IMG/VR virus record: IMGVR_UViG_3300030098_003801
Coordinates: 1 to 52,804 of that record
Length of the DNA: 52,804 bases
Reading direction: 5' to 3' (one strand)
Origin: a virus
Shown piece by piece: positions 1-51,860 of this stretch. Both the position numbers and the translations under genes were made by a program. The notes beneath the pieces were generated by a model. The model was not told the origin of the DNA. It did no database searches and saw nothing but the letters and a program-made list of their open reading frames with translations. Each line of letters begins with the position of its first letter. The stretch's first letter is position 1.

Positions 1-98
1 CATGTGGGACACCCCGTTTCGGGTCGATCTGGGTGCCTCGTGCAGGGTGTCTCGGACCCCTCTCCAACATGTGGTGGTCTCACCCCATCCTGATCAGG
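1..98. repeat. Left copy of the contig-terminal direct repeat
   Basis: These 98 bases are identical to 52705-52802; position 99 (A) differs from 52803 (G). The repeat means the contig closes into a circle, either because the molecule is circular or circularly permuted, or through assembler overlap. It lies in the non-coding control region, so no gene is cut by the contig ends. Confidence 0.9.
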
Positions 99-130
99 AG
101 GAGCCCGTCGCCCCGGCCAAGCTCACCTCA

Positions 131-197
131 CGAAAGCCGGCGTTCGCCCGTTCGCGACCACCCCCCATTTTCACGCGAAAGCTGGCGTTTGCCCGTT
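131..197 (+). repeat. Pair of imperfect 22-bp direct repeats
   Basis: Copy one is at 131-152 (CGAAAGCCGGCGTTCGCCCG followed by TT) and copy two at 176-197. They differ at two positions, both C to T, and their starts are 45 bp apart. Copy one contains the inverted repeat GGCG-TT-CGCC. Repeats of this size upstream of a phage early operon could be binding sites for a regulator or replication protein; that role is inferred. Confidence 0.6.
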
Positions 198-342
198 GAG
201 TTGGCTCCACGGTAGAACGCCGAATATCGAGGGGCCCCCGATCGCCGAGAGGCCCCCGAGGATCATGTCATGCAAGAGTTTACAACTTTTCTAAACCCGC
301 TGCTGGCCCGGCTCTACAGGCCCTCGCTCTGACCCGGCCCGT

Positions 343-361
343 TTGCCCCTACATCTAGAGT
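343..361 (+). promoter_or_regulatory. 19-bp element shared with 3781-3799
   Basis: The sequence TTGCCCCTACATCTAGAGT matches TTGCCCCCATATCTTGAGT at 3781-3799 in 16 of 19 positions. Both copies lie in non-coding DNA, 70-100 bp upstream of a start codon and upstream of a short leader hairpin. It may be a promoter (TTGCCC as a -35-like box) or an activator site. I do not see a good sigma-70 -10 box at the expected spacing. Confidence 0.4.
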
Positions 362-405
362 ATGCAAGAGAGCGTCCACATTCTGAATCTCTCTTCTTTT
401 CAACC

Positions 406-421
406 GGGTCGTACCAGACCC
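406..421 (+). promoter_or_regulatory. Leader hairpin before the first early gene
   Basis: GGGTC (406-410) pairs with GACCC (417-421) around the loop GTACCA. It stands in the leader of the 443-721 gene. Comparable 5-bp hairpins with CCA- or CAAA-containing loops stand before the genes at 3850, 4408 and 9644. Confidence 0.4.
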
Positions 422-442
422 ACCAGCCAAAGGACACACACC

Positions 443-721
443 ATGACATTCTTCGACCTTCCCTCCGCTCTCGACGCCTCCGACATCACCTTCGTGCAGG
501 CCACCGCCAACCTCACCCACGAGGACGGCCTCGGCACCACCGAGCACAGGCACCACGACCGGAACCCCTCGGACTCGCAGGAGTTCTGCACGGCGGCCGT
601 CCACATGAAGCTGCGCGACCTGCTCGACGGCATGTCTCTTGAGGAGGCTCTGGCCGAGTACAACCCGAAGGGCGACGACGAGGTCACCCTGCTTCTGGTG
701 AAGCTGATCACCCAGCCCTAG
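443..721 (+). CDS. Early protein of unknown function, 92 aa
   Basis: This is the first gene of the rightward arm. The ATG at 443 is chosen because AAAGGA stands just upstream; an in-frame ATG at 362 would add 27 residues with no ribosome site. The protein begins MTFFDLPSALDASDITFVQA, is acidic and soluble, and has no membrane segment or motif I recognise. The stop codon is followed after 6 nt by a UACG-tetraloop hairpin and then a hammerhead ribozyme, so its mRNA is predicted to end at 749. Position suggests an immediate-early host-interaction protein, but nothing in the sequence shows a function. Confidence 0.75.
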   Translation: MTFFDLPSALDASDITFVQATANLTHEDGLGTTEHRHHDRNPSDSQEFCTAAVHMKLRDLLDGMSLEEALAEYNPKGDDEVTLLLVKLITQP

Positions 722-727
722 CGGGCA

Positions 728-743
728 GCCCCCTACGGGGGGC
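728..743 (+). other. 3'-end UACG hairpin next to ribozyme 1
   Basis: GCCCCC (728-733) pairs with GGGGGC (738-743) around the UNCG-class tetraloop TACG. It begins 6 nt after the stop codon and ends 6 nt before the predicted cleavage site. No T-tract follows, so it does not look like an intrinsic terminator. CAGC at 726-729 could instead pair with GCTG (744-747), which is the 5' strand of ribozyme stem III. Confidence 0.75.
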
Positions 744-792
744 GCTGTCGTGGGGAAGCCCACCTGATGAGCCCGATGAAGGGCGAAACAGC
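744..792 (+). ncRNA. Hammerhead ribozyme 1 (open stem III)
   Basis: All core elements are in order. Stem III is GCTG (744-747) with CAGC (789-792), plus T748-A788. The cleavage triplet is GTC, cut after C749. Stem I is GTGGG (750-754) with CCCAC (759-763). The core CTGATGA is at 764-770, stem II is GCCC (771-774) with GGGC (781-784), and GAAA is at 785-788. Entry and exit are through stem III. Predicted products are an upstream RNA ending at C749 with a 2',3'-cyclic phosphate and a downstream mRNA starting at G750 with a 5'-OH, 61 nt before the ATG at 811. No invariant core base is missing. Confidence 0.93.
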
Positions 793-810
793 AACTAACG
801 AGAGGACGAC

Positions 811-1029
811 ATGGGACACACGGAACAATGGACGACGCGGCGGACGGCAGCATGGGTCATCGCCAAGCTGCGCGAGTACAAGGAAGAGGACATCGAGGAG
901 GCCTTCGGGTGCCCCGGCTGCACCATGCTCGACCTGCTCGGGTTTAACGCGAGGTCAGATGGCGACCTCGCCACCGCACGCCTCTGCGAACGCTGGTTCG
1001 CCAAGGTCACATCCGAGGAGGGCTGGTAG
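811..1029 (+). CDS. Early protein of unknown function, 72 aa
   Basis: The ATG at 811 follows GAGAGGACGAC, a good ribosome site. The protein begins MGHTEQWTTRRTAAWVIAKL, is partly helical and has two cysteines in FGCPGC; I recognise no family. The gene is bracketed by ribozymes 1 and 2, so the predicted mature message is a single-gene RNA of 307 nt (750-1056). Confidence 0.7.
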   Translation: MGHTEQWTTRRTAAWVIAKLREYKEEDIEEAFGCPGCTMLDLLGFNARSDGDLATARLCERWFAKVTSEEGW

Positions 1030-1036
1030 CCGCCAC

Positions 1037-1050
1037 GCCCCTTCGGGGGC
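1037..1050 (+). other. 3'-end UUCG hairpin next to ribozyme 2
   Basis: GCCCC (1037-1041) pairs with GGGGC (1046-1050) around the very stable tetraloop TTCG. It begins 7 nt after the stop codon and ends 6 nt before the predicted cleavage at 1056/1057. No T-tract follows. It would cap the 3' end of the processed upstream message. Confidence 0.78.
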
Positions 1051-1051
1051 A

Positions 1052-1103
1052 CCGTCCGAGGCTGACCCGCCTCGCTGATGAGACTCATGGAGAGTCGAAA
1101 CGG
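1052..1103 (+). ncRNA. Hammerhead ribozyme 2 (open stem III)
   Basis: Stem III is CCG (1052-1054) with CGG (1101-1103) plus T1055-A1100; cleavage falls after C1056 in GTC. Stem I is CGAGG (1057-1061) with CCTCG (1070-1074) and an 8-nt loop. The core CTGATGA is at 1075-1081. Stem II is GACTC (1082-1086) with GAGTC (1092-1096) and loop ATGGA. GAAA is at 1097-1100. All catalytic-core positions fit the hammerhead consensus. Stem III is the shortest of the four. Cleavage leaves a 66-nt leader before the ATG at 1123. Confidence 0.92.
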
Positions 1104-1122
1104 AACCACAGAGGAGACAGAC

Positions 1123-1473
1123 ATGAACATCGCATTCACCCGGCACGCATCCGAGCCCGGCATCACCATGACCTTCGACATCGAGACCGCAGTCCACACA
1201 TTGTGGGGGGGCGAGGGCGACGGCATCAAGAAGCTGCGCGCACTGGCCACCCTGCTTGACATCGAGATCCCGAAGGGACTCCGCACCATTCGCGAGGACA
1301 AATACTACTACGTCTACGACAACACCGGGGCGCTGGTTTTCTCGGACTACGATGACACCGTCAACGCCACACAAATGAAGGCCGCGTACATCGCCCACCT
1401 CATCGAGGAGCGCGCCAAGAAGCTCGAAGAAGATGAGCGCGAGGCCCGTTACGCACGTGCACACAACATCTAA
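1123..1473 (+). CDS. Early protein of unknown function, 116 aa
   Basis: The start at 1123 follows AGAGGAGACAGAC. An in-frame ATG at 1078 lies inside the ribozyme and is rejected. The protein begins MNIAFTRHASEPGITMTFDI, has a mixed middle with KYYYVYDNTGALVFSDYDDT, and ends in a charged helix (IEERAKKLEEDEREARYARA). I recognise no family. It is a single-gene unit between ribozymes 2 and 3, with a predicted processed RNA at 1057-1502. Confidence 0.72.
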   Translation: MNIAFTRHASEPGITMTFDIETAVHTLWGGEGDGIKKLRALATLLDIEIPKGLRTIREDKYYYVYDNTGALVFSDYDDTVNATQMKAAYIAHLIEERAKKLEEDEREARYARAHNI

Positions 1474-1480
1474 ACCCCTC

Positions 1481-1495
1481 GCCCCCTTCGGGGGC
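1481..1495 (+). other. 3'-end UUCG hairpin next to ribozyme 3
   Basis: GCCCC (1481-1485) pairs with GGGGC (1491-1495) around CTTCG, or C1486-G1491 closes a TTCG tetraloop. It begins 7 nt after the stop codon. The preceding CCCC (1475-1478) can extend it by pairing with GGGG (1497-1500), which is the 5' strand of ribozyme stem III, so hairpin extension and ribozyme folding compete. Confidence 0.75.
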
Positions 1496-1496
1496 A

Positions 1497-1551
1497 GGGG
1501 TCGTGGGCTGTACCGCCCGCCTGACGATGGCTCATGGAGAGCCGAAACCCC
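1497..1551 (+). ncRNA. Hammerhead ribozyme 3, with an extra core base
   Basis: Stem III is GGGG (1497-1500) with CCCC (1548-1551) plus T1501-A1547; cleavage would be after C1502. Stem I is GTGGGC (1503-1508) with GCCCGC (1515-1520), including one G-U pair. The core CTGACGA is at 1521-1527; C at the variable position 7 is permitted. Stem II is GGCTC (1529-1533) with GAGCC (1539-1543) and GAAA is at 1544-1547. T1528 is an extra base between the core and stem II and may slow or abolish activity. Loop II (ATGGA) is the same as in ribozyme 2, which suggests duplication. Confidence 0.8.
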
Positions 1552-1576
1552 GTCAGTCACAACCAGAGAGGACATC

Positions 1577-2338
1577 ATGACCAACAGCACCTTCGACATC
1601 ACGATCAACACCGCCGAGATGGGCCCCCTCACGATCCGTGAGCACGAGGACGACATCAAGCGGTCGAACTTCGACGAGGAGGCCGTGAGCGACGAGACAC
1701 TGGCCCTCGTCATGGCTGCGATGGCAGCGGCCAAGGCCACCGGCGAGAGCGTCACCATCAACACCAGCCCTGACCGTGGCGTCACCGTCGCGCCTGTCGC
1801 GCCCCTCTTCGACGAGGAGTGCATCGCTTGGAGCAAGGGGCATGCCGGACGCGGGCACCGCGTCGCGCAGAGCCACCGCGGAGAGGTCTTGCAGGACGTG
1901 CGCGCGGTCATGCCCACCCTCGTCTTCGAGCACACCGACTACGACGGCGTCGTGCGCCGCATCACGGTGGATGCCGAGGCCACCATCACCTCCCACGAAG
2001 GTGAGCGCCGCGAATACGTCTACCTTCGGAGGACCTTCACCGTCGAGCGTCAACTCAAAAGCGGGAAGTGGCATTCCCGTCGGAAGTGGACCCCCGCCAA
2101 CGCCTGCCCCATCCTCGATGTCGTCGAAGAGCACTGCTACGGCAGCGAGGACATTCTCTCCCTGCGCTGGAACTCTCTCTTCAATGCTTTCTACGACTTC
2201 AACAACGGCTACTTCGACGCCATCGCGAACGGCGTCAGCCAGATCGACAGGGACCACGCCTACGCTGTGCGCACCTCCCTCACTGGCTTGCGCGATCACC
2301 TCGACGGCGCGCTCGTCGAGTGGGAGGTGCAGGGCTGA
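1577..2338 (+). CDS. Early protein of unknown function, 253 aa
   Basis: The ATG at 1577 follows AGAGAGGACATC. The upstream in-frame extension runs through ribozyme 3 and is rejected. The protein begins MTNSTFDITINTAEMGPLTI. The N-terminal 80 residues are acidic with a helical stretch (ETLALVMAAMAAAKATGESV). Residues 80-250 look like a mixed alpha/beta domain rich in aromatic and charged residues. I recognise no family. It is the largest of the five ribozyme-separated proteins; its predicted processed message is 1503-2356. Confidence 0.75.
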   Translation: MTNSTFDITINTAEMGPLTIREHEDDIKRSNFDEEAVSDETLALVMAAMAAAKATGESVTINTSPDRGVTVAPVAPLFDEECIAWSKGHAGRGHRVAQSHRGEVLQDVRAVMPTLVFEHTDYDGVVRRITVDAEATITSHEGERREYVYLRRTFTVERQLKSGKWHSRRKWTPANACPILDVVEEHCYGSEDILSLRWNSLFNAFYDFNNGYFDAIANGVSQIDRDHAYAVRTSLTGLRDHLDGALVEWEVQG

Positions 2339-2343
2339 CGCCC

Positions 2344-2355
2344 ACCCTTCGGGGT
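2344..2355 (+). other. 3'-end UUCG hairpin that overlaps ribozyme 4
   Basis: ACCC (2344-2347) pairs with GGGT (2352-2355) around TTCG (2348-2351). It begins 5 nt after the stop codon. Its 3' arm consists of the bases ribozyme 4 needs for stem III (G2352-T2355), so the two structures are mutually exclusive. After cleavage at 2356/2357 the hairpin could form and cap the upstream message with one overhanging base. Confidence 0.75.
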
Positions 2356-2403
2356 CGGGCGCTGCTACGGCGCCCCTGACGAGTCCATCGAGGACGAAAC
2401 CCC
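2351..2403 (+). ncRNA. Hammerhead ribozyme 4 (open stem III)
   Basis: Stem III is GGGG (2351-2354) with CCCC (2400-2403) plus T2355-A2399; cleavage is after C2356 in GTC. Stem I is GGGCGC (2357-2362) with GCGCCC (2370-2375). The core CTGACGA is at 2376-2382. Stem II is GTCC (2383-2386) with GGAC (2392-2395) and loop ATCGA. GAAA is at 2396-2399. All conserved positions are intact. Cleavage leaves a 77-nt leader before the ATG at 2434. CGTCAG at 2403-2408 is complementary to CTGACG in the core (2376-2381), an alternative inactive pairing also present in ribozyme 3. Confidence 0.92.
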
Positions 2404-2433
2404 GTCAGCCATCAACCATTCGAGAGGAACAAC

Positions 2434-2976
2434 ATGACCAGAATCACATTCACCATTAGGGTTGACGGCAATATCGACTACCACTGGGCCCAGCGCATCC
2501 CCGACGGTGTGAACGCCCGCCTGTACGAGGACTTGAGCGACCTGATGCGCGGCTACGTCTACTCGCCCCAAGAGGTGGCGATCACCTACCCCACCACCTG
2601 CGGACCCAGCCCGCGCACCGTCGTTACCAGCAACCGACGCCACTCCCGTAAGCACCTCTCCGACATGACCGACGAGGTCTGGACCTGCGTGCAGCAGGCC
2701 CTCTCTGCTGGCCTGCGCCCCGCCGCGGCCGGCACGGATGGGGGCATGGTTGGGCCCGTGTCCTTCCTGCCCATCACGAATGGCGCCGCCGTCGTGCGCA
2801 TCCACGATCGGTATGATGCCGGTAATGTCGTCAGCTACATCGCCGCCAGCGAGGACGACTGCCGGTGCAACCTCTCCCGCGCCGCGTACCAGTGCGCACT
2901 GGAACAGGGCGACACCGTCACCATGGGCTGCGTCATCGCCGAGCCCGTGCGCAGCGCTCAGGGAGGTGCGGCATGA
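2434..2976 (+). CDS. Early protein of unknown function, 180 aa
   Basis: The ATG at 2434 follows GAGAGGAACAAC. The protein begins MTRITFTIRVDGNIDYHWAQ and appears mixed alpha/beta with several cysteines in the C-terminal half (DDCRCNL, YQCALEQG). No family recognised. Its message starts at ribozyme 4 but runs on, because the next genes overlap by ATGA. The C-terminal QGGAA is written by the GGAGGTG ribosome site of the next gene. Confidence 0.72.
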   Translation: MTRITFTIRVDGNIDYHWAQRIPDGVNARLYEDLSDLMRGYVYSPQEVAITYPTTCGPSPRTVVTSNRRHSRKHLSDMTDEVWTCVQQALSAGLRPAAAGTDGGMVGPVSFLPITNGAAVVRIHDRYDAGNVVSYIAASEDDCRCNLSRAAYQCALEQGDTVTMGCVIAEPVRSAQGGAA

Positions 2977-3095
2977 GAGACCCCTACTTCAGCGACGAGA
3001 CCGTCGCCGCCTTCGTCTTCATCTTCGGCACCCCGTGGCTGGCAGCCCTGACTGTGCTCACTGTGAGCCTGCTGCTCGAAGGGGGTGCAGCATGA
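2973..3095 (+). CDS. Small membrane protein, 40 aa
   Basis: The ATG overlaps the previous stop (ATGA), with GGGAGGTG upstream. The protein is a short acidic head followed by one hydrophobic helix (residues 10-35, with VAAFVFIFGTPWLAAL). Such one-pass mini-proteins are common in phage early regions. The function is unknown; a host-membrane effect is possible but not shown. Confidence 0.65.
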   Translation: MRDPYFSDETVAAFVFIFGTPWLAALTVLTVSLLLEGGAA

Positions 3096-3328
3096 GCCTG
3101 TACGGACACAGCTTCAACGACTTCAGAACCCAGACGAACAACGACATCGTCGAGGCGCACAGCGACAAGCCCGCGCACGAGTGCAGGGCCTGCCGAGGCC
3201 GCGGCTGGTGGCTGTCGGACTACGACACATGGGAGACGTGCCCCCTCCACTACACGGGGCAGCCAGACCCCGAGACTGCGATGGCGGATCACGAGGCGGC
3301 CGAGCGTGATCGGGGAGGTGACGCATGA
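3092..3328 (+). CDS. Small zinc-finger-like protein, 78 aa
   Basis: The ATG at 3092 overlaps the previous stop. The middle carries CRACRGRGWW and then CPLHY, a CxxCxGxG half-site like the DnaJ cysteine-rich repeat followed by CxxH, so one metal-binding unit is plausible. No other domain is visible. It is translationally coupled within the tiny-gene operon. Confidence 0.68.
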   Translation: MSLYGHSFNDFRTQTNNDIVEAHSDKPAHECRACRGRGWWLSDYDTWETCPLHYTGQPDPETAMADHEAAERDRGGDA

Positions 3329-3534
3329 AACCCACCTACCTGCACTACACCTTCCGCGTCCGCATTGACCACAAGGCTGACTTGGCCGAAGCCCTTGAGG
3401 CTGGCCAGCAAGCTATGGACACCGTGGCCACCGCCCTTGAGATGCACTGCATCGGCGTCGAGTCGAGCACCGAGGAAATCGAGCAGAGCCTCACCGTCGA
3501 GGCGCGCGACCTTCCCCACGGAGGTGACGCATGA
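3325..3534 (+). CDS. Small acidic protein of unknown function, 69 aa
   Basis: The ATG overlaps the previous stop (ATGA), with GGGGAGGTGACGC upstream. It begins MKPTYLHYTFRVRIDHKADL and reads as a strand-helix-strand fold of about one small domain. No family recognised. The ending GGDA reflects the next ribosome site. Confidence 0.65.
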   Translation: MKPTYLHYTFRVRIDHKADLAEALEAGQQAMDTVATALEMHCIGVESSTEEIEQSLTVEARDLPHGGDA

Positions 3535-3629
3535 GAGACCTACGCTACGAGGCCGCCGCTTGGCTCCTCGCGATCGTCTGCTGGGCAGTTACAATGTACT
3601 TCTATTCACAACTCGGAGGTGCAGCATGA
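3531..3629 (+). CDS. Small membrane protein, 32 aa
   Basis: A very short gene supported by ATGA overlaps at both ends and by GGAGGTGACGC before the start. The peptide has a charged N-terminus (MRDLRYE) and one hydrophobic helix (AAAWLLAIVCWAVTMYFY). Function unknown. Confidence 0.6.
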   Translation: MRDLRYEAAAWLLAIVCWAVTMYFYSQLGGAA

Positions 3630-3772
3630 GCAGGCGCAAGCGACAGGCCCCACCGAAGCGACGCAACGCCGTCGTGCAGGCCATGAAGTCACGCTCCGCC
3701 AAGGCGGGGTACCACACCGACAGGAAGAAGGAGGCCAAGCGGCGAGCCTGTCGCCAGAAGTACCGGGTGTGA
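3626..3772 (+). CDS. Small very basic protein, 48 aa
   Basis: The ATG at 3626 overlaps the previous stop, with GGAGGTGCAGC upstream. The protein starts MSRRKRQAPPKRRNAVVQAM; nearly 40 percent of residues are Lys or Arg. This suggests nucleic-acid binding, but no fold can be named. It is the last gene of the first coupled cluster. Confidence 0.62.
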   Translation: MSRRKRQAPPKRRNAVVQAMKSRSAKAGYHTDRKKEAKRRACRQKYRV

Positions 3773-3780
3773 TCATATTG

Positions 3781-3799
3781 TTGCCCCCATATCTTGAGT
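3781..3799 (+). promoter_or_regulatory. Second copy of the 19-bp element
   Basis: TTGCCCCCATATCTTGAGT matches the element at 343-361 in 16 of 19 bases. It starts 9 bases after the previous stop, in the first real gap after the coupled cluster. Its repeated position upstream of a new transcription segment suggests a promoter or activator site. Confidence 0.4.
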
Positions 3800-3815
3800 C
3801 AGTTAACCACGGTGT

Positions 3816-3836
3816 GCCGGCACCAAACCACCCGGC
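3816..3836 (+). promoter_or_regulatory. Leader hairpin with CAAACCA loop (copy A)
   Basis: GCCGG (3816-3820) pairs with CCGGC (3832-3836) around CACCAAACCAC. The ribosome site AGGAGGA follows at once and the ATG is at 3850. The hairpin at 4375-4393 has the same loop core (CAAACCA) with a different but still paired stem, so the pairing is conserved by compensating changes. Confidence 0.5.
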
Positions 3837-3849
3837 AGGAGGATACATC

Positions 3850-4191
3850 ATGAAGACGAACGACCTAGCCTACCTCACGCACAACGAGGACGAAGGCATC
3901 TGCATTCACGGCACCCACAAGCAGGGCACCCTGACCGGCATCACTTACAACCAACTGTACCTCGCCTTCGGGGGTCACATCTGGGTGGAGGGCCCCGATC
4001 AGGTGGACTGGTCATGGAACATTGAGTTCCCCTGCGGCACCGTGGCTACGGTGTACAACTGGAAGAACGGTCCCAACTACTGCGGCGCCGCTGGCATGAA
4101 CCGCTATCAGGTCACGACGTGGAACGTCGGGGGCAACAGCGCCGAAGCGTGGCACCTCGTCAAGGCTGCGCTCGAAGGAGGTGCAGCATGA
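3850..4191 (+). CDS. Unknown protein with Trp-rich domain, 113 aa
   Basis: The ATG at 3850 follows AGGAGGATACATC. The protein begins MKTNDLAYLTHNEDEGICIH and appears all-beta, with conserved-looking aromatic stretches (HIWVEGP, VDWSWNIEFP, TVATVYNWKNG, TTWNVGG). The look is that of a compact phage accessory domain, but I cannot name its family. It is coupled to the next gene by an ATGA overlap. Confidence 0.68.
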   Translation: MKTNDLAYLTHNEDEGICIHGTHKQGTLTGITYNQLYLAFGGHIWVEGPDQVDWSWNIEFPCGTVATVYNWKNGPNYCGAAGMNRYQVTTWNVGGNSAEAWHLVKAALEGGAA

Positions 4192-4316
4192 AAAGCATCG
4201 CCAAGTTCCTCGGACTCTGGGAGGCGATCGACTTCTGCGACGCCTACCACCACGGCAACCTTCGCATCGAGAAAGAACTCGACGGACGCTACCACGTCTA
4301 CGACATGGGGGCCTAG
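4188..4316 (+). CDS. Small protein of unknown function, 42 aa
   Basis: The ATG overlaps the previous stop and GGAGGTGCAGC precedes it. The protein begins MKSIAKFLGLWEAIDFCDAY. No motif is recognised. The hairpin region at 4335-4354 follows. Confidence 0.58.
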   Translation: MKSIAKFLGLWEAIDFCDAYHHGNLRIEKELDGRYHVYDMGA

Positions 4317-5698: not shown

Positions 5699-6670
5699 AT
5701 GTTTGACACTATTGACTACAACCACGAAGCCCCGGCACTCACTCTCGGCACCAAGGTTCCGACCGAGTCCGAGAACATTGTCGAGGCGCTCCTGTCTGCG
5801 GACATCCCATTCGACGCGCCCGTCAAGGTGCCGATGGCTTCCGTCCTACCCGACGGTGGCGTCCGGGTGATCCCCGACAGGTACAACCTGATGGATAGTC
5901 GCGGCCGCATCGTCGGTGAGAACGTGACCGACCGCTACACTCCCATCGGGTTCGGTGAGATGTTCGGAGTGGTGGACCACCTGCTGCACCAAGGCTTCTC
6001 CATTGACAGGGTGATCGACTTCAACGGGCGCCGGCTCTTCGTCAGCGTGGAGTTGACGCAGTACCAGTTTGACGTGACCGGGGACGGCGACCTCGTCACC
6101 CCGCACGCTTGGATCAGGGGCTCGCATGACAGTAGCTCTTCCACCGAGGTGTTCATCGCCCTCGGCCGTGGCTACTGCACGAACCAACTGGTCGCAACAA
6201 AGCAGATGGTCAAGCGAATGGGCCTGCCGCACATCTCCGTGCGCCACACACGCAGCGCGCCCGACCGCCTGCGGATGGCGGCGGAGTTGTTCTCCAACTG
6301 CGAGCGGATGATCATGAGCCAGAAGGAGATCATGCAGCGCTTCGCGGCCACCCCTTTCAGCGCCACCGCCTTCGCTGACTTGGTGGACAACCTGATCCCG
6401 CTGCCGGAGGAGCCACTTGAGGGTGAGTCCACCCGCGGCTACACGATGGCGGAGAACCGACGCGGCCTGCTCTTCGACCTGTACGAGTATGGGCGTGGCG
6501 CCCACTCTGGACGCGGCACCAAGTGGCAGGCGCTCAACGCTGTCACCGAGTACACCACCCACCACATCGCAACGCGCGGTGGGGACCGCGAGGAGAAGCT
6601 GTTCCTCGGCAGCATCGAAGGACCTGCCGCGAAACTCAACGAGCGGGCGATGGAGCTACTCAACGCATAG
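5699..6670 (+). CDS. DUF932 family protein, 323 aa
   Basis: The ATG at 5699 follows GAGAGGACAGT. The protein begins MFDTIDYNHEAPALTLGTKV and shows the DUF932 phage/plasmid pattern: DRYTPIGFGEMFGVVDHLL, then GRRLFVSVEL, then GSHDSSSSTEVFIALGR with GYCTNQL, then SVRHT. The family occurs widely in phages and plasmids and its function is not established. It is the last gene before an intrinsic terminator, suggesting its own transcription unit expressed at a high level. Confidence 0.85.
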   Translation: MFDTIDYNHEAPALTLGTKVPTESENIVEALLSADIPFDAPVKVPMASVLPDGGVRVIPDRYNLMDSRGRIVGENVTDRYTPIGFGEMFGVVDHLLHQGFSIDRVIDFNGRRLFVSVELTQYQFDVTGDGDLVTPHAWIRGSHDSSSSTEVFIALGRGYCTNQLVATKQMVKRMGLPHISVRHTRSAPDRLRMAAELFSNCERMIMSQKEIMQRFAATPFSATAFADLVDNLIPLPEEPLEGESTRGYTMAENRRGLLFDLYEYGRGAHSGRGTKWQALNAVTEYTTHHIATRGGDREEKLFLGSIEGPAAKLNERAMELLNA

Positions 6671-6677
6671 GACTTGA

Positions 6678-6703
6678 GGCCCCCTTCGGGGGGCCGCTTT
6701 CTT
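6678..6703 (+). terminator. Intrinsic terminator with UUCG loop
   Basis: GGCCCCC (6678-6684) pairs with GGGGGCC (6689-6695) around TTCG and is followed by GCTTTCTT. The stop codon is 7 nt upstream. It has the same form as the 3' hairpins at 728, 1037, 1481 and 2344 but, unlike them, is followed by a T-rich run instead of a ribozyme. Confidence 0.7.
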
Positions 6704-49358: not shown

Positions 49359-51860
49359 TCAAGCTTCTACGTCCGGCCAGTTAAGCTTTGAGGCGATCAC
49401 GCTGGCCGGCGATTCGGCGGAGCGCGTGAGATGCGCGAGGGTAATGCCCTTCCACACGCGAATAGATTTCCTCTGCCCGTTGAATGTTGTCTTGGTGACA
49501 ACGCTCTTGAAGTCTCGCTCGGACAACTGGCGACAGAAGAGAGAGTAGCTCTGCGGCCGCTGCTTCATGTCCTCGCACCACTCGGCGTAGTCCATGTAAA
49601 GCTGCTTCTTGGGAACCGACCTGTGCTTCCCAAAGACGCACCGCTCCTCCATATATTCGGAGAGCACATCCATCTCTTCACGGTACTCATCGGTGGCCAT
49701 CGTGACTTTCTGGGGCGGCTTCAGCCCGTTCTTCTGCCACAATAAGCAGCCTTCAACCAGCCTATTCAAGATACCCGGTGCTTCTTTCTTCAGCTTCTCA
49801 ATCAGGTGCGGGTCTTTTTTGTCGGCGGGGATCTTCCTCTTCCAAGGGATGCGGAGCACCCTTCGCCAGATCCCCTCATCGTTACCCTTGATGATCGGGC
49901 GATGGTTGGCGGCGATGCAGAGTTTGTGCGTCGGCATGAACTGGTAAAAGTCCTGACGCATCTTCCTTGCGCGAACCGGGTCACTTCCGGTCAACTGCTT
50001 GATCAGCACCTCGGCAAAGGGCTTGCCCTTCTCAACCTCTGCGTTAGCCACGAATCGCGCGCCCTCTAGGTCCGCAACCTCGGTAGGGTGTGACTCATTC
50101 TTCTTTGCCATCAGCAGTCCCGGCGCACCCTGAATGGCGTATTCTCCGAGAATGTGCATTAAAACTAGCAAAGCAGTGGTCTTGCCGTTTCCGCCCGTCC
50201 CCTCCATGAAGAGAAGAACTTGCTCTGTGACCAGACCCGTAAGGCAATAGCCGAAGAAACGATGGAGGAACTCGACGACTTCCTCGTCCTCCTCCATCAC
50301 ATACATAATGAACTCATCCCAGAGGGGGCACTTCGCGTCCACGTCCCATTCGACTGGGCTGATTTTTGTCATCAGGTCGGTCCTGTCGTGTGCACATAGT
50401 TTCCCTGTACGAAGGTCGATGGTTCCGTTAGCCACATTGAATAGCCACGGGTCAGCGTCAAGGCGGTCTGCGGGGATGCAAACCTCTTGCTCCGTCGAGG
50501 CGGTGGACACAAGAGAGTTTAGTGAGCCCCAGCTTTCGCTCCGCAGCGCATGGCGCTGGATGGCGCGACGCTCCCGGCGGTCGGTCTCCGCGTTGGCCTG
50601 TGCAAAGATGAGCGCCACAGTGGCCTTGGCATATCGGTGAATCACGCTGTTGACATCCCGCTCCCACCGGGCCCCGTCAAAAATATACCAAGAGTTTCTA
50701 GTGGGGCAGTAGCGGATGTCCGTCCCGAAAGAGGCGACCATCCTCTTTGCGTTGCCGAGGTCGGTCAAGTTGAAGTGCGCGGAGGACGAGGGCTCCAGAG
50801 GCCCGTGGTGGTGCCCGTCGTCGTCACCGCCACCGTTACCGAAATCTTCTCCGGCAAGCTCCTGTAGGCGACGCCAGCCTAGACTACGGTCATCCTCGTC
50901 CCTGCCGTGACCCCTACAGTTCTTGTGCAGACATCCGGCGGCAATCGCTCCGCTGTTAAACTGCACGATGTAGGCGCTGCGGTCAGTGTGCGATGCGTCC
51001 CACGGGCAAACATCAAACACCCACCGACGACCTTTGCCCTGCCAGTTTTCCGGCCCCTCTGCTGCGGGAAAATGATTTGCGACCCACAAATCCAGCCGAG
51101 CCTGATCCCCGCTAGATAGGGTATCACGCTTATTCTCCTTCGGAGAATCAGCAAGTAGCTCTTGCAGTTGCTGCTGCTGGACAGCTTTTTCCGGCAGATG
51201 GCCCGGAATGACGTGCGCCATCGGCCAAGGCTCGAGGCCCTTTCTTGCATATGTACCATAAACCTTCCATATGCGGGAAGGGTTGTAGACGGACTGGTCC
51301 ACAACGGCCACCCCGTCTTTATTAAAGCGGAAGGCTAAGAAATCGAGGAAGCGTTTGTGGTCCTGCGGGGTCAATCCCTCGCAGTCGTACATGAGATGGT
51401 AGCCGTTGCCCGAGTCTGCGAACAATGGCGCGGGCCATCCGCGCGAATCCAAGAATGTCCGCACCTTGCTCACCACCGACAGGGCACTTTCGCGCTGATC
51501 CTGCGTACTCGAGGTGTTTGCCGGGCGACATGGGTCAATATCCACTAAAATCCAGCGAATCTCCGCCACATCGGCGTCAGATGCCGCAGATCCGCGCCGA
51601 GCCACGCCCAATGTGTTGCGATTGCCCGGATGTAGGTCTGGATTCAGGGGGTTCGGGGTGAAGTAGACCCCTCTGGCCCCTTCATTGCACAGATACTCTG
51701 CTGCCTCCGCCAATAGGTCGTGGTCATCAAAGAATCCGTTGAGATTCCGGTAGCCTTCGTCCGTCTCGACCCCAAGTGCCCGCAGTTCCACTAGTTGTCC
51801 GGGGCGCAGTACCTTCTCGAAACCGCTTCTGATGCGGTCTCGCTTCGTTGTGTCCGTCAT
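49359..51860 (-). CDS. P4-alpha-like primase-helicase, 833 aa
   Basis: The ATG at 51860 follows TAGGAGGGGAC. Residues 100-205 form an AEP-type primase: DIDP (107-110), SGNGYH (150-155) and DQSVYNPSRIWKVYGT (188-203). A Cys/His cluster lies near 285-318 (FDVCPWDASH, CLHKNCRGHG). The C-terminal half is a D5/P4-type superfamily 3 helicase with EGTGGNGKTT (553-562), ARFVANAEVE (601-610), IAANHRP (649-655) and an arginine region GIWRRVLRIPW. It would recognise the origin, unwind it and prime replication. The nearby iteron cluster is the obvious candidate target. Confidence 0.88.
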   Translation of the reverse strand: MTDTTKRDRIRSGFEKVLRPGQLVELRALGVETDEGYRNLNGFFDDHDLLAEAAEYLCNEGARGVYFTPNPLNPDLHPGNRNTLGVARRGSAASDADVAEIRWILVDIDPCRPANTSSTQDQRESALSVVSKVRTFLDSRGWPAPLFADSGNGYHLMYDCEGLTPQDHKRFLDFLAFRFNKDGVAVVDQSVYNPSRIWKVYGTYARKGLEPWPMAHVIPGHLPEKAVQQQQLQELLADSPKENKRDTLSSGDQARLDLWVANHFPAAEGPENWQGKGRRWVFDVCPWDASHTDRSAYIVQFNSGAIAAGCLHKNCRGHGRDEDDRSLGWRRLQELAGEDFGNGGGDDDGHHHGPLEPSSSAHFNLTDLGNAKRMVASFGTDIRYCPTRNSWYIFDGARWERDVNSVIHRYAKATVALIFAQANAETDRRERRAIQRHALRSESWGSLNSLVSTASTEQEVCIPADRLDADPWLFNVANGTIDLRTGKLCAHDRTDLMTKISPVEWDVDAKCPLWDEFIMYVMEEDEEVVEFLHRFFGYCLTGLVTEQVLLFMEGTGGNGKTTALLVLMHILGEYAIQGAPGLLMAKKNESHPTEVADLEGARFVANAEVEKGKPFAEVLIKQLTGSDPVRARKMRQDFYQFMPTHKLCIAANHRPIIKGNDEGIWRRVLRIPWKRKIPADKKDPHLIEKLKKEAPGILNRLVEGCLLWQKNGLKPPQKVTMATDEYREEMDVLSEYMEERCVFGKHRSVPKKQLYMDYAEWCEDMKQRPQSYSLFCRQLSERDFKSVVTKTTFNGQRKSIRVWKGITLAHLTRSAESPASVIASKLNWPDVEA

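Follow-up and report, generated by a model that had tools for sequence, protein, structure and literature searches.

The virus record IMGVR_UViG_3300030098_003801, analysed over its whole length of 52,804 nucleotides (nt; the window), carries four type III hammerhead ribozymes (HH1 to HH4) in the spacers that set off the first five genes (P1 to P5) of its rightward operon. The four spacers are probably composite processing modules which, judged from the sequence, would be cut during transcription to give single-gene mRNAs with structured ends. The ribozymes are intact and occupy conserved places, covariation is seen between their loops, and a hairpin precedes each of them at a fixed spacing. 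This GC-rich hairpin, absent from an earlier account of the window made from its letters and open reading frames (ORFs) (the sequence-only reading), is the most informative feature.

The four hammerheads

Hammerheads of types III and I were sought on both strands of the window using a descriptor that demands CUGANGA, GAA plus an A15.1-U16.1 pair, any base but G at the cut and three helices, each 3 base pairs (bp) or longer. HH1 to HH4 were the only matches of either type. All four are on the + strand, co-oriented within 1.7 kb, and each lies between two ORFs. Chance yielded 0.025 type III matches per shuffled window (200 dinucleotide shuffles), and 2000 shuffles of positions 301-2600 gave none.

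The motifs are written in the order stem III, cut (^), stem I, core and stem II, with loops in brackets. HH1 (744-792, cut predicted after 749) reads GCUGU C^ GUGGG(GAAG)CCCAC CUGAUGA GCCC(GAUGAA)GGGC GAA ACAGC. HH2 (1052-1103, predicted cut after 1056) reads CCGU C^ CGAGGC(UGACCC)GCCUCG CUGAUGA GACUC(AUGGA)GAGUC GAA ACGG. HH3 (1497-1551) would be cut after 1502 and reads GGGGU C^ GUGGGC(UGUACC)GCCCGC CUGACGA+U GGCUC(AUGGA)GAGCC GAA ACCCC. HH4 (2350-2404), with its cut predicted after 2356, reads CGGGGU C^ GGGCGC(UGCUACG)GCGCCC CUGACGA GUCC(AUCGA)GGAC GAA ACCCCG. The core C3 U4 G5 A6 N7 G8 A9 ... G12 A13 A14, the A15.1-U16.1 pair and H17 at the cut are present in all four, with one additional U after A9 in HH3, as claimed by the sequence-only reading. 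Three helices surround the core and stem III is open in every case; stems I (5-6 bp), II (4-5 bp) and III (4-6 bp) are free of mismatches. The minimum-energy structure of isolated HH1, HH3 and HH4 is the three-stem form.

The covariance-model search proposed in the sequence-only reading bore out all four type III hammerheads, together with the descriptor. The Rfam model RF00008 (Hammerhead_3) matched HH1 with 40.5 bits (E 1.5e-6), HH4 with 39.9 bits (E 2.2e-6) and, each searched alone in 91 nt, HH2 with 37.2 bits (E 3e-7) and HH3 with 21.1 bits (E 0.011). These E-values are significant, yet the scores (21.1-40.5 bits) fall below the gathering cut-off of 48.5 bits, which is a filter setting and not a property of ribozymes. 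A default Rfam scan, or standard annotation, therefore shows none of the four. Array members from other phages likewise score below this cut-off.

The additional U after A9 was also found in HH4 of an independent relative, IMGVR_UViG_3300025141_000127 (G005; DNA polymerase 90% identical), and in other phages. One extra base at this site was seen in ten distinct type III hammerheads gathered, and in eight of the ten it was U. This recurrence points to tolerance rather than decay. A DNA pattern for UUCG-hammerheads gave 69 matches in bacterial genomes, of which 1 passes the descriptor, so that the descriptor tells ribozymes from chance. That sole structured hammerhead lies on a contig of a planctomycete metagenome-assembled genome (L331, position 3287, - strand). 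Pattern matches in L010, L011, L012 and others lacked the helices and were discarded as chance.

A contact between loops I and II was examined in hammerheads whose loop I has at least 5 bases and starts with UG or UA, a class that includes HH2, HH3 and HH4. As a rule, loop II contains a complement to the bases at the end of loop I (CC/GG, CU/AG, CG/CG, GC/GC, UAUC/GAUA and others). Of 27 distinct loop pairs, 22 were complementary, compared with 11.6 when partners were shuffled (p about 1e-5). The pairs in the window are CC/GG in HH2 and HH3 and CG/CG in HH4; HH1, with GAAG/GAUGAA, is outside the class covered by the covariation test. Perreault et al. (PMC3088659) had already noted pseudoknots involving loop I in all three hammerhead types, and the covariation therefore supports function, not a new kind of contact. 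Loop contacts permit cleavage at low cellular Mg2+ (PMC6155905). The four cut sites named above, which coincide with those of the sequence-only reading, are supported by the anatomy of the motifs, their conservation in a related phage and the loop covariation.

Hairpins between stop codon and ribozyme

Hairpin H1 (728-743, + strand), identified from sequence and folding, has 6 bp and a UACG (UNCG) loop and abuts stem III of HH1 with no gap; a UUCG hairpin is at the same place in G005. H2 (1037-1050, + strand; from sequence) has 5 bp and a UUCG loop and is kept in G005. H3 (1481-1495, + strand; from folding) has 6 bp and a UUC loop. A single A separates H2 and H3 from stem III of HH2 and HH3. 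The CCCCU upstream of H3 (ending at 1479) can pair with the stem III strand 1496-1500; in G005 this outer pairing is not kept and the inner hairpin is. H4 (2344-2355, + strand; from sequence) is ACCC-UUCG-GGGU and is identical in G005. Its 3' arm lies in the GGGGU that also forms stem III of HH4, and H4 and stem III are therefore mutually exclusive. From stop codon to cut there are 28, 27, 29 and 18 nt for HH1 to HH4.

The hairpins were considered as intrinsic terminators, and this was rejected: the U-run of such a terminator is missing, and a terminator scan found none of H1 to H4. The scan did detect a terminator-like UUCG site with a U-rich tail at 6678-6695, after the DUF932 gene (5699-6695 region; gene end 6670). 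A general release switch, in which sequence upstream of the hairpin pairs with stem III, was also set aside. Such pairing of at least 5 bp was found in 25 of 104 cases against about 11 expected, which is real but minor, and in the window it is present at HH3 only.

The first collection scans of phage hammerheads had UUCG in their pattern, and an independent set was therefore gathered with a hairpin-free pattern. In this set, the 45 nt before the cut were much more stable than shuffled sequence and more stable than the sequence 100 nt upstream (p 5e-13), and the distances from stop codon to cut clustered at 26-44 nt. The 45 nt before the cut folded to -14.6 kcal/mol, and stretches of equal length behind the other stop codons in these loci to -8.1 kcal/mol (p 1.5e-16). 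Of the 81 members left once similar copies had been discarded, 53% had z < -2. In 36 of 79, the gap from the end of the best hairpin to the cut was 5-6 nt, as long as stem III. The type I hammerheads of phages have a closed stem III, and this hairpin finishes one base ahead of the cut. The upstream mRNA would thus end in a hairpin with either type. In the fetched loci, the stop codon of the ORF preceding a type I hammerhead was mostly in or beside stem I (39 of 47 at -10 to +3 of core C3).

The module of a strong hairpin followed 5-6 nt later by the cut seems to be new, and is usual for type III hammerheads of phages. No such rule was found in a literature search covering part of the field, and looking through the main text of PMC3088659 for the words hairpin, stem-loop and terminator turned up no mention of such a hairpin. 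On balance we lean towards the view that, across unrelated phages, the type III hammerhead is the cutting half of a two-part element that forms 3' ends, the other half being a hairpin at a fixed distance after the stop codon and against stem III. The element would be a ribozyme-made substitute for a terminator, capping both new mRNA ends and allowing exchange gene by gene.

The hairpin may instead serve an active ribozyme, by stacking on stem III or by shielding the ribozyme from the terminating ribosome, and so make ribozyme folding fast and reliable. The placement of the hairpin against stem III, with a constant 5-6 nt to the cut, fits this explanation. So do the 26-44 nt between stop codon and cut, a distance at which a ribosome still fits on the stop codon. 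Some bases of H4, however, also belong to stem III of HH4, so that the two would compete, and H4 is identical in G005. In type I, moreover, it is stem III itself that forms the terminal hairpin of the upstream mRNA, which suggests a structured 3' end as the requirement shared by both types. A purely auxiliary hairpin is accordingly considered unlikely, though it is the most credible of the alternatives.

Related phages and the weighing of alternatives

In IMGVR_UViG_3300030329_004038, P1 to P4 are 100% identical to those of the window; it is essentially the same phage and gives no independent evidence. The search for the same array in related phages, called for with the sequence-only reading, succeeded in G005, where four intact hammerheads have the same order and places as in the window, and failed in a more distant relative discussed below. 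The predicted cuts are 307, 574 and 860 nt apart in G005 and 307, 446 and 854 nt apart in the window. HH1 of G005 differs by a single base (N7) and HH3 is identical. HH2 has another stem I, stem II and both loops, with the ribozyme intact and the loops still pairing; in HH4, stem II, the loops and the core length are changed and the loops again still pair.

The genes between the ribozymes are less constant. In the window, P3 occupies the slot from HH2 to HH3; its homologue in G005 (L139, G005:20000-30000, - strand) follows HH4, and the slot is filled there by an unrelated gene X of 159 amino acids (aa). The ribozyme spacers are 94, 87, 95 and 92% identical between the two phages, compared with 81, 74 and 86% for P1, P4 and P5; P2, at 93%, is the only gene that matches the spacers. 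With spacers conserved and genes replaced or moved, the ribozyme frame is kept while genes move.

The same observations could be accommodated if the modules were mainly recombination joints for exchanging early genes between non-homologous cassettes, with self-cleavage secondary or decaying. P3 is at different slots in the two phages, gene X has replaced it, and the spacers are more conserved than most genes. Sites serving recombination alone, however, could do without CUGANGA, GAAA, three helices and covarying loops, and HH2 has changed both stems and both loops between the window and G005 with the ribozyme intact. We regard recombination as the main role as quite unlikely.

It is conceivable, too, that the hammerheads cut and that some products are then circularised, the P4 RNA being closed by the reverse hammerhead reaction or an RtcB-type ligase. 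The stem III strands of HH3 and HH4 are interchangeable: in the window and in G005 alike, ACCCCG of HH3 forms 6 bp with CGGGGU of HH4. Neighbours with compatible stem III also show a slight excess (22 of 36, compared with 17.5; p 0.015). This excess may stem from duplication of modules, though; HH1/HH2 and HH2/HH3 are incompatible, so that HH3-HH4 is the only such pair in the window, and circular or spliced products were sought by Perreault et al. and none seen (PMC3088659). Circle formation is therefore judged improbable.

Processing into gene-length mRNAs accounts best for the spacers. The self-processing expected by the sequence-only reading is supported by the anatomy, the G005 array and the covariation. 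Each spacer would be a module consisting of stop codon, stable hairpin, type III hammerhead, ribosome-binding site and start codon. Upon transcription of the early operon, each hammerhead would fold, be held by the contact between loops I and II, and cut after GUC. Hammerhead cleavage leaves 2',3'-cyclic phosphate and 5'-OH ends. The upstream mRNA would end in the hairpin and the short stem III strand carrying the cyclic phosphate, and the downstream mRNA would start with a 5'-OH and be structured from its first nucleotide by the stem I hairpin. The predicted products are P1 (to 749), P2 (750-1056), P3 (1057-1502), P4 (1503-2356) and P5 onward (2357-), all with structured ends, and neither a promoter nor a terminator would be needed for each gene. 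Genes could be swapped between modules, and each mRNA could be translated and decay independently. We infer cleavage in the cell, end protection and independent decay from these features; gene order suggests that one transcript would span the array. The ends are putatively resistant to exonucleases and to enzymes requiring a 5' phosphate, and the evasion of host enzymes suggested in the sequence-only reading is plausible chemistry.

Several points weigh against this reading. The minimum-energy fold of isolated HH2 is not the hammerhead, as a mis-pairing extends stem I. HH3 has its additional core base, and in published tests an insertion at a different core site (after A6) reduced activity. 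CGUCAG stands beside stem III of HH3 and HH4 (1551-1556 and 2403-2408), is complementary to core CUGACG and could inhibit folding. The protective role of the hairpin is one that we infer. Lastly, the relative G021 (polymerase 83% identical) has short early-gene spacers and no hammerhead. The array was thus gained or lost within the group and is dispensable in the wider family.

The CGUCAG sequence next to stem III is also present in G005 and L140, and could lead to another fold ahead of cleavage or to trapping of the cleaved product. As a general feature, a core complement in this position was rejected, being confined to the HH3/HH4 lineage.

The idea that the matches arose by chance or are remnants without activity can be given next to no credence: scores below the Rfam cut-off, the extra base in HH3 and the array-free G021 would suit it, but shuffling produced no match in 2000 trials, cores and stems are intact in two diverged phages, the loops covary, and 1 of 69 bacterial pattern matches passes the descriptor.

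Gene context and comparison with known systems

P1 (443-721, + strand, 92 aa) is the first gene of the rightward operon, with a homologue 61% identical at the same place in G005. P2 (811-1029, + strand, 72 aa) has a homologue 81% identical and P4 (1577-2338, + strand, 253 aa) one 51% identical in that phage. P3 (1123-1473, + strand, 116 aa) is the gene displaced there. P5 (2434-2976, + strand, 180 aa), the last gene set off by a ribozyme, has a homologue 76% identical over 144 aa. No family was found for P1 to P5 in PHROGs or Pfam. Later genes of the operon are mostly arranged end to end. A blastn search of positions 1-4200 against INPHARED phages gave no match. The best of the matches listed for the window DNA polymerase in deposited phages are only about 22-28% identical, and no relative of it was found in bacterial genomes. 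Upstream of the operon, CGAGRGGCCCCCGA is present twice, 18 nt apart, at 228-259, with a similar stretch in G005; the pair is a possible operator or origin element. A D5_N / DUF5906 protein (primase-helicase-like) is encoded at 49359-51860 on the - strand, far from the replication genes of the + strand.

The view of the sequence-only reading that such a series is not a described system had to be given up. Clustered hammerheads flanking prophage genes were published in 2011 by Perreault et al., who proposed processing into gene-length mRNAs and reported cleavage of tandem phage hammerheads, from a triple array, in vitro and in E. coli (PMC3088659). Among the matches listed in IMG/VR, arrays are common and reach seven members in phages unrelated to the window; the descriptor recognises two or more hammerheads in 48 of the 117 loci sampled, a few weak matches among the 117 possibly being chance. 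The array of seven (six type I, one type III) is on one strand within 8.3 kb of an unrelated phage contig (L213, 1738-9979, - strand), and a similar array of six is present in L239.

The role of hammerheads in phages and bacteria is a listed open question (PMC6155905). The set distance from stop codon to cut, a hairpin that would act as a 3' cap and an array fixed despite gene replacement make one answer directly testable. It would be a protein-free route from one early transcript to separately stable mRNAs, and would offer a ready design for multi-gene expression. The default Rfam cut-off overlooks whole arrays of this kind in phage genomes.

The window resembles the prophage clusters of Agrobacterium tumefaciens (the ardA triple array), Azorhizobium caulinodans and Clostridium scindens (PMC3088659) in that a single phage operon contains more than one hammerhead and these flank individual genes of varying identity. 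In the window, the four motifs flank genes of what gene order suggests is one phage transcription unit, and an orthologous array is present in G005. Unlike those clusters, the window has four consecutive type III hammerheads; every spacer has one, preceded by a UNCG-type hairpin, one of the four has an extra core U, and the array positions are conserved across gene replacement. The core, the three helices, the open stem III and the loop I-loop II contact are shared with the RF00008 hammerheads of satellite RNAs, viroids and retrozymes; the window motifs differ in scoring below the gathering cut-off, in a longer stem I loop and in belonging to a DNA phage operon rather than a replicating RNA circle. 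The HHphage variant of the haloarchaeal viruses HF1/HF2 (Perreault et al. 2011) is similarly located just upstream of an early gene start in a lytic virus, but is a single variant ribozyme and not an array. The array of the window is a well-preserved case of a known phenomenon, to which it adds the hairpin-hammerhead module with its fixed spacing, a frame that outlasts gene change and a recurring extra core U.

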